Shown here one piece after another: positions 37,320-61,172 of a stretch of 64,000 nucleotides of DNA (position 1 is the first letter of the stretch; each line of letters begins with the position of its first letter). The stretch lies in contig NZ_CP007028.1 in assembly GCF_000512735.1 (NCBI RefSeq), forward strand, positions 1,426,001-1,490,000, read 5' to 3'. A program made the translations under genes and the position numbers. The DNA comes from Thermocrinis ruber (GTDB lineage Bacteria; Aquificota; Aquificia; Aquificales; Aquificaceae). The notes under the pieces were generated by a model. The model searched no databases, was not told the origin of the DNA, and saw nothing but the letters and a program-made list of their open reading frames with translations.

Positions 37320-38339
37320 TTAGCCCCAAACCCCCGCTATCTCAAAACCACAAACCTCACACTTACCTTCCCTGAGTTTTACCTTTACCCGTTCTCCCAA
37401 GTATCCGCTCCTTTCTATAACTATGTGCCCACAGGATGGACAGTAAGTGGAGGTTAAGCTTTGGTCTGCATAGTTCCCCACATACACATACCTAAGCCCC
37501 TCCTCCTTTCCTATCTCATAAGCCCTTTTAAGGGTGGACACAGGTGTGGGTGGTAGGTCTCCCATTAGATAGGCTGGGAAAAACCTGGATATGTGCCAGG
37601 GAATGTCCGGAGAAAGCTCTCTTATGAACCTTGTTATTGCCCTAATTTCACCTTCTGAATCGTTGTAGCCGGGTATCAGAAGGGTGGTGATCTCTATCCA
37701 TATGCCCAGCTTATAAGCCTTCTCTATGGTTTTTAGAACGGGTTTTAACCTTGCCCCGCATATCCTTTGATAAAAATCATCGGAGAAGGACTTTAGGTCT
37801 ATGTTCATTGCGGAAAGGAATGGCACAGACCTTTCAAGCACCTCCTCCGTCTCATAACCACTGGAAACGAATATGTTCTTTATGCCCCTCTCATAAGCAA
37901 GCTTCATAATATCGTAGGCAAACTCAAAGAATATCACGGGCTCGTTGTAGGTGTAAGATATGGAGGGTATATTAAACCTTTCCGCAATGCTCACAATCTC
38001 CTGAGGAGAGTATTCCTCTCCAAAGACCCTGTAATTGTTCAGTTGGGGATACTGGGATATCTCCCAGTTTTGGCAAAACTTACAGGACAGGTTGCATCCT
38101 ACGGTGCCCAGAGAAAGGGTGGCAGTTCCGGGAAGAAAGTGATAAAGAGGCTTTTTCTCCACAGGGTCTATGTTCAAGGCTGAGACTAAACCATAAACAG
38201 TAAGATAGAGCTCTCCTCCTCTGTTTAGCCTCACTCCGCATTTGCCATACTCTCCCTCCTTTAAAACGCACCTTTGCATACACGCCTTACAAAGCACCTT
38301 TTGGTCCTTCTTCTCCGACATCCAAGCTATCCTCATCAT
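37320..38339 (-). CDS. amrS: AmmeMemoRadiSam-system radical SAM enzyme
   Basis: Radical SAM protein related to pyruvate formate-lyase activases; the CX3CX2C cluster motif is in [12 protein letters not shown]. Extra Cys pairs at the N-terminus (CKACMQRC) and C-terminus (CPSCGH; CEVC) may bind metal. 339 residues. Known as one partner of the conserved AMMECR1-Memo-radical SAM trio; the Memo gene lies divergently next to it, with 19 bp between starts. The start is ATG at 38337-38339 or 38319-38321. Confidence 0.9.
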
Positions 38340-38345
38340 CTGAAT

Positions 38346-38353
38346 TAAATTTA
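38346..38353. promoter_or_regulatory. Palindromic -10 core TAAATTTA shared by amrS and the Memo gene
   Basis: The perfect 8-bp palindrome TAAATTTA sits in the middle of the 19-bp gap. It offers TAAATT to each gene: 7 nt before the Memo GTG and 8 nt before the amrS ATG. Neither gene has a Shine-Dalgarno. Confidence 0.5.
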
Positions 38354-38358
38354 TCCCT

Positions 38359-39132
38359 GTGAAGGTAAGAAAACCTGCAGTAGCAGGAAGTTTTTATCCA
38401 AAGGATCCAGAAACTCTGAAAAGCTTGGTGGATAAGCTGTTGGAAAAGAACACCAAAGAAGAGCCTGTCGGGGTCATATCTCCCCATGCGGGATATGTAT
38501 ACAGTGGCAAAGTGGCGGGAAAGGTCCTTGGGCTTTTGGGTGGAAAGGAGCTAAAGGTACTGCTGATTGGACCATCGCACTTTGTGGATTTTGAAGGTAT
38601 ATCCTTCGGTGATTACCAATTTTTTGAAACACCCTTGGGAAGGGTAAAGGTAGATTGGGAAAGAATTGAAGAGTTTTTGAGGCTATACCGGTTACCTCAT
38701 GCTTTGGACAATAGACCCCATATGTGGGAACATTCTTTGGAAGTTCAACTGCCCTTCCTGCAGAGACTATCTCCAAACTTAACCATAGTGCCCATTGTTT
38801 ATGGTAGGATTGACCCGGAAACTTTAGCGGAGTTTATGGAATTCTTCTTAGAGGATGACACACACTTCGTGGTAAGCTCTGACCTAAGCCACTATTACCC
38901 GGAGGAGATCGCAAGGTGGATAGACGAACACTGCCACAGGGGTATTGTTGAAGGAGATAGAGAAAGCCTAAAAACATGCGAAGCTTGTGGTAAGGTTGGC
39001 ATCCTTGCATCCCTCATAATAGCCCAAAGGAAAAAGCTAAAGCCCAAGCTGATAGCTTACGACACCTCCGCCTCCGCCTTTGGAGATAAAAAGGCAGTGG
39101 TAGGCTACGGAGGTTATGCTTTTTTCCAATAG
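38359..39132 (+). CDS. amrB: AmmeMemoRadiSam-system protein B (Memo-like)
   Basis: A Memo-family protein, structurally like extradiol dioxygenases, with metal-site residues in ISPHAGYVYSGKVAG (His), WEHSLEVQLPFLQ (His) and SSDLSHYYP (His). 257 residues, starting GTG at 38359 (VKVRKPAVAGSFYP is the standard Memo opening). The biochemical function is unsettled; eukaryotic Memo binds redox metal. AMMECR1, the third member, is not in the window. Confidence 0.92.
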   Translation: MKVRKPAVAGSFYPKDPETLKSLVDKLLEKNTKEEPVGVISPHAGYVYSGKVAGKVLGLLGGKELKVLLIGPSHFVDFEGISFGDYQFFETPLGRVKVDWERIEEFLRLYRLPHALDNRPHMWEHSLEVQLPFLQRLSPNLTIVPIVYGRIDPETLAEFMEFFLEDDTHFVVSSDLSHYYPEEIARWIDEHCHRGIVEGDRESLKTCEACGKVGILASLIIAQRKKLKPKLIAYDTSASAFGDKKAVVGYGGYAFFQ

Positions 39133-39148
39133 GCTTATATTTAAACCC

Positions 39149-39464
39149 ATGGAACTAAAAATCCAACAACTCAAGGAGCTCTACGAAAAAGACTTTCTAC
39201 TTTTGTTGGAAGAGAATTTAAAGCTTTTGGAAAACAAAGAATACGACCTCGTAGATTGGGATAACCTTTTGGAGGAGATAAGGCACATAGGACAAAGGCA
39301 TTTGGATGCGGTCATAAGCCAAATGGTTTGAAAAGCCCAAAAACCACGACCTTGCCCAAAAATACTTTGGGAGCATTCCCACCGAGAAAGACTTTCCTAA
39401 AGACTGCCCTTACACCTTTAAACAGATACTTGAATACAAACCCTGGTTAAAGGATAAAACTTAG
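39149..39464 (+). pseudogene. DUF29 gene remnant with internal deletion
   Basis: The N-terminal part (MELKIQQLKELYEKDF through DAVISQM) is followed directly by the C-terminal part in another frame (WFEKPKNHDLAQKYFG through ILEYKPWLKDKT). Compared with the tandem copies at 21-23 kb about 70 codons from MAVIMEHLYKW to the LIDWF region are missing. The junction is at about 39323-39326, where ATGG serves both sides (M of the first part, W of the second). The same upstream element GGCTTATATTTAAA is kept. Confidence 0.9.
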
Positions 39465-53365: not shown

Positions 53366-53376
53366 AGCCAAAAACT

Positions 53377-53386
53377 ATTATAAAAT
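53377..53386. promoter_or_regulatory. Overlapping -10 elements between fliL and pmbA
   Basis: Plus TAAAAT (53381-53386) is 8 nt before the pmbA ATG; minus TATAAT (53377-53382) is 5 or 11 nt before the possible fliL ATGs. The gap is 23-29 bp. No -35 matches are convincing. Confidence 0.45.
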
Positions 53387-53394
53387 CTTTCACG

Positions 53395-61154: not shown

Positions 61155-61160
61155 GAGATT

Positions 61161-61170
61161 TAAAATTTTA
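61161..61170. promoter_or_regulatory. Palindromic TAAAATTTTA between the macro-domain gene and flhA
   Basis: A perfect 10-bp palindrome in an 18-bp divergent gap. Plus TAAAAT is 6 nt before the flhA ATG; minus TAAAAT is 10 nt before the macro-domain ATG. No Shine-Dalgarno is present for either gene. Confidence 0.5.
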
Positions 61171-61172
61171 GC

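Follow-up and report, generated by a model that had tools for sequence, protein, structure and literature searches.

In the 64,000-nucleotide stretch of the Thermocrinis ruber genome analysed here (hereafter, the window), the divergently oriented genes amrS and Memo are separated by a gap of 19 bp, and this gap probably constitutes one bidirectional core promoter for two leaderless mRNAs. Bidirectional leaderless transcription is the best-supported reading of the locus, given the sequence of the gap, its conservation in relatives, the recurrence of the same arrangement at other divergent pairs and the lack of Shine-Dalgarno sequences at both genes.

According to the proposed mechanism, the TAAATT hexamers of the two strands share four bases within TAAATTTA, which would let the housekeeping (sigma-70) RNA polymerase load in either orientation, one molecule at a time. 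Transcription would begin ~0-3 nt from each start codon, yielding amrS and Memo mRNAs that are leaderless or carry a leader of 1-2 nt, and the promoter would work by its -10 elements only, without a -35 element. Translation would follow the leaderless route at a 5' ATG for amrS and a 5' GTG for Memo, and polymerases engaged in the two directions would mutually exclude each other. It may be speculated that high growth temperature favours the melting of such AT-rich cores where a -35 element is lacking.

Genes, start codons and predicted promoter elements

The products of amrS and Memo, which form part of the AmmeMemoRadiSam system, both scored above the curated cut-offs of their protein families (TIGR04337 and TIGR04336, respectively; Table 1). 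The start codons of both genes, ATG at 38339 on the minus strand and GTG at 38359 on the plus strand, look secure. Neither is preceded in frame by an upstream ATG, GTG or TTG, the N-termini align across relatives (M..AW[ML]SE for amrS and [MV].VRKPAVAG for Memo), and both start positions are kept in the relatives, most of which have ATG at the Memo position. Downstream of Memo, a 71-aa open reading frame (window positions 39116-39331, plus strand) that matches just the first 49 of the 138 positions of DUF29 (PF01724) is possibly a truncated gene.

Table 1. Coordinates of genes, predicted promoter elements and short divergent gaps in the window
Feature	Position	Strand	Evidence or remark
amrS, AmmeMemoRadiSam-system radical SAM enzyme	37320..38339	-	NCBIfam TIGR04337, E 5.9e-111, above cutoff
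Memo, AmmeMemoRadiSam system protein B	38359..39132	+	TIGR04336, E 8.3e-71; Pfam PF01875
Divergent 19-bp intergenic gap CTGAATTAAATTTATCCCT, predicted whole -10 region for both promoters	38340..38358		Sequence, conservation
TAAATTTA, palindrome of 8 bp in which two opposed -10 hexamers overlap	38346..38353		Exact in 9/10 genomes with the pair
Predicted Memo -10 hexamer TAAATT	38346..38351	+	Ends 7 nt before GTG
Predicted amrS -10 hexamer TAAATT	38348..38353	-	Ends 8 nt before ATG
Putative Memo transcription start	38358	+	Hexamer first T + 12; leader ~1 nt
Putative amrS transcription start	38341	-	From -10 position; leader ~2 nt
Gap of fliL-like (TTG 53371, -) and tldD/pmbA-like (ATG 53395, +) genes, core CTATTATAAAATCT	53372..53394		Core kept in three genus relatives
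Gap of macro-domain gene (ATG 61154, -) and flhA (ATG 61173, +), GAGATTTAAAATTTTAGC	61155..61172		Relatives' gaps

The preliminary description of this locus had placed the two start codons 19 bp apart, around a palindrome that supplies each gene with a -10-like hexamer 7-8 nt from its start, and had noted the lack of a Shine-Dalgarno sequence on both sides; all three statements agree with the coordinates and sequence of the gap. No GGAG, GAGG or AGGA was found at positions -17 to -5 before the amrS or the Memo start on either strand. The first T of the -10 hexamer is located at -13 for Memo and at -14 for amrS, which is the leaderless distance for a hexamer of the TAnnnT type. By E. coli standards these elements would be weak, with a 4/6 match to TATAAT and no TGn extension. 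The positions at which a -35 region would be expected fall inside the coding sequence of the partner gene in each case and hold no recognisable element; a search for TTGACA at 15-19 bp spacing gave best matches of 2/6 and 1/6 at this locus.

Conservation of the core in relatives

Searches of the relatives and of the whole family for the amrS/Memo pair revealed that the two genes are divergent and adjacent in ten Aquificaceae genomes from three genera, with a gap of 18-20 bp. Nine of these genomes carry TAAATTTA unchanged as their core, and the tenth (L163; full gap, AGGAGATTAATTTATTTCTC) has TTAATTTA, a single change that alters the Memo-side hexamer and leaves TAAATT on the amrS strand. Mean pairwise identity, computed without the near-identical L002, was 97% in the eight core columns vs 42% in the other gap columns. 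The underlying alignment was anchored on the core; as both arms are 5-6 nt long in all genomes, it could shift by no more than one base. In amrS and Memo, four-fold degenerate sites whose residues are invariant showed 33-34% identity, and only 0-4% of them were as conserved as the least conserved column of the core. This is the pattern that the preliminary description had anticipated, namely a palindrome that persists while its flanks drift; loss of the palindrome from close relatives, which it had named as evidence against the proposal, was not seen.

Within this genome alone, the significance of the amrS/Memo core is weak and not beyond chance; what makes it significant is conservation together with genome-wide recurrence. 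TAAATTTA is expected ~2.4 times per 64-kb window, and ~10% of random AT-rich 19-mers hold a palindrome of at least 8 bp, as would suit a short AT-rich gap without special function. Such a chance origin is already disfavoured by a core that is near-invariant in ten genomes, compared to saturated neutral sites, and the family-wide recurrence of the arrangement at the right spacing (see below) also speaks against it, so that we give it next to no credence.

A further alternative is that the core serves one gene only, the promoter of the other being located within the neighbouring gene and the opposed hexamer being incidental to AT-rich symmetry. A single AT-rich 8-mer yields both hexamers cheaply, and in 53% of shuffles of the amrS/Memo gap each strand has a -10-like hexamer. 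The substitution in L163 likewise touches the Memo side with the amrS side intact, and the minus strand has a weak 9/12 promoter match, which is at shuffle level and whose hexamer overlaps the amrS start codon. However, all eight positions of the core are conserved next to gap positions and four-fold sites that are near saturation, and both genes lack the Shine-Dalgarno sequence expected with a longer leader. A natural separation of the two genes also bears on this alternative. In G033, a congener of L163 (in which the pair is intact), amrS and Memo are far apart; amrS is preceded by GTAAATTAATTCTT-ATG and Memo by ATTAATTTATTCCT-ATG. Both separated genes thus retain a -10-like core with its spacing to the respective start codon unchanged, suggesting that each direction matters independently. 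We consider it unlikely that the core serves a single gene.

In some relatives the palindrome is longer, at 12 or 16 bp (GGTTTAAATTTAAACC in G035), and perfect symmetry of this kind would also be compatible with an operator for a dimeric regulator, instead of or besides a polymerase core. Yet the outer arms are unconserved in most genomes, neither remnant in G033 is a perfect palindrome of that core, and the cores of other short divergent gaps differ and are mostly non-palindromic, with only the opposed -10 pattern common to all. An operator therefore seems very improbable to us.

Recurrence of short divergent gaps in Aquificaceae

Divergent pairs were surveyed in 400-kb samples of four Aquificaceae genomes (G000, together with the window, G002, G016 and G009) and of the outgroup G054. 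Family f1 is presumed to be Aquificaceae and family f3, which includes G054, to be Hydrogenothermaceae; the statistics are independent of these names. Gene calling relied on a simple codon model, with the start placed at the 5'-most compatible codon. Divergent pairs with gaps of 11-25 bp accounted for 42 of 230 in the four Aquificaceae samples vs 0 of 52 in G054 (Fisher p = 1.4e-4); the 5'-most start rule may bias single genes, and the outgroup, treated identically, has no short-gap class.

Opposed -10-like hexamers at positions -17 to -11 were present in 52 of the 55 gaps of 8-32 bp, and codirectional gaps of the same length had -10 hexamers on the two strands in 66 of 235 cases. The short divergent gaps are richer in AT than these codirectional controls (73-83% vs 62-65%), and composition thus accounts for part of the two-strand signal, although composition-preserving dinucleotide shuffles of the same gaps reach just 29 of 55. 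A Shine-Dalgarno-like motif was detected before 7 of the 138 genes that flank divergent gaps of 5-40 bp, compared to 416 of the 889 operon-internal genes. When the transcription start is placed 12 nt after the first T of the hexamer, the implied leaders in the short-gap class concentrate at 0-3 nt. The implied start-site separations, determined for 37 strong pairs, included 15 bp (nine pairs), 16 bp (nine), 18 bp (three) and 23 bp (six). No -35 signal was detectable in the pooled class (2.86 vs 2.81 in the control). In a separate alignment of pooled Aquificaceae promoters on their -10 elements, no -35 consensus emerged ahead of leaderless-type genes, among them those with long upstream gaps, though variable spacing may blur it.

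Perfect palindromes were also considered as a hallmark of short divergent gaps and were rejected, their numbers in the 42 gaps being near expectation (22 vs 18.7 for palindromes of at least 6 bp; 7 vs 5.5 for those of at least 8 bp). Because palindromes are not enriched, the shared unit is an overlapping pair of opposed -10 hexamers, and the palindrome at amrS/Memo is one among several ways of overlapping two -10 elements. The terminal AT or AATT of the hexamer is self-complementary, which allows both strands to keep near-consensus hexamers.

These results narrow what had been proposed from amrS/Memo for the genome at large. The idea of a single palindromic core as the unit has to be given up, and one fixed symmetric core is replaced by preferred implied start-site spacings of 15-16 bp and 23 bp. 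Opposed -10 elements at leaderless distance do form a recurring architecture for the short-gap divergent pairs of Aquificaceae; the stronger claim of a genome-wide standard fails, since about half of the operon-internal genes are led by a Shine-Dalgarno sequence and the leaderless design is therefore not standard for every gene.

A sample-to-sample comparison of orthologous short divergent pairs gave one match only. This pair (sample positions 260786 in G000 and 306169 in G002) has gaps of just 11 and 12 bp, and its opposed -10 hexamers reach the start codons or run into them. Divergent gaps cluster most tightly in G016, which belongs to another genus (L101-L120); of its 45 pairs, 13 have gaps of 14-23 bp, ten of these falling at 14-18 bp.

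Other divergent pairs in the window

Two further gaps in the window, between a fliL-like and a tldD/pmbA-like gene and between a macro-domain gene and flhA, have the same architecture (Table 1); these gene names are presumptive. Both pairs were traced in relatives by genome search. The fliL/tldD gap measures 22-29 bp in three relatives of the genus, and a TAAAAT-like hexamer is found ~7-9 nt before the tldD start in most other Aquificaceae genomes, whatever the neighbouring gene. The macro-domain/flhA gap is identical in two close relatives, and opposed TTAAAATTCTA is retained in G002.

A different arrangement upstream of the macro-domain gene was observed at L183, L184, L188 and L193 (around position 1490-1501), where the gene starts ~5-10 nt past the 3' end of tRNA-Arg(CCT). 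This junction, seen in four Aquificaceae relatives, has no Shine-Dalgarno sequence outside the tRNA, and 3' processing of the tRNA would produce a nearly leaderless macro-domain mRNA.

Comparison with known systems

Warman et al. reportedly described, in 2021, promoters that work in both directions from a common, symmetric -10 element. Divergent transcription from a shared -10 element in E. coli proceeds from start sites most often separated by 18 bp, in other cases by 10 or 23 bp (PMC12825309; Warman et al., 2026). As in those promoters, the opposed -10 elements of Aquificaceae overlap, and a single short sequence could thereby serve both strands. The implied start-site spacings (17 bp at amrS/Memo; 15-16, 18 and 23 bp genome-wide) coincide in part with the published values of 18 and 23 bp (PMC12825309). 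The Aquificaceae units differ from the E. coli promoters in that 15-16 bp, and not 18 bp, is the most frequent implied spacing, in that no -35 signal is seen, and in that both products are predicted mRNAs of protein genes and would be essentially leaderless (PMC12825309). Without leaders on either mRNA, the two start codons would themselves mark the start-site spacing.

Leaderless genes have been predicted to make up 20.7-32.4% of genes in two Aquificae, with Aquifex aeolicus as an example, in the study by Zheng et al., 2011 (PMC3160421). The TA-led leaderless genes presented there resemble the genes analysed here in their TAnnnT/TAtaaT hexamer, its fixed short distance to the start codon and the lack of a Shine-Dalgarno sequence; that study takes genes one by one and, as far as its text was searched, does not describe divergent pairs with a common core. 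Leaderless starts are reportedly also common in the genomes of mycobacteria, which belong to the Actinobacteria (PMC3898074; PMC4633059). A dRNA-seq study of Aquifex reports ncRNAs and motifs (PMC4227106). Leaderless genes of Aquificae and bidirectional promoters have thus each been described already, and what may be new is their combination. No report combining the two was found in a full-text literature search, which had subscription papers mostly outside its reach, and the absence of an earlier report is for that reason not proven.

Biological implications

On balance, we think it likely that Aquificaceae use ultra-compact divergent units as a regular design, in which one overlapping pair of -10 elements, without a -35 element, would set both the promoter and the translation start for two leaderless mRNAs. 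In these units, which would comprise about one-fifth of divergent pairs, the spacing of the polymerases would fix the distance between the start codons (peak gap, ~15-20 bp). Two ideas known separately, divergent transcription from symmetric -10 elements and leaderless mRNAs, would thereby be joined in one minimal unit. Because the spacing of start codons would report the spacing of start sites, the unit is recognisable from sequence; each genome offers dozens of gene pairs at which to test the prediction, which also aids the correct calling of start codons in Aquificaceae. If the proposal is true, ~20 bp of non-coding DNA would run two genes, errors of a few bases in the choice of transcription start would directly affect the translation of both, and promoters of hyperthermophiles may work without a -35 element.
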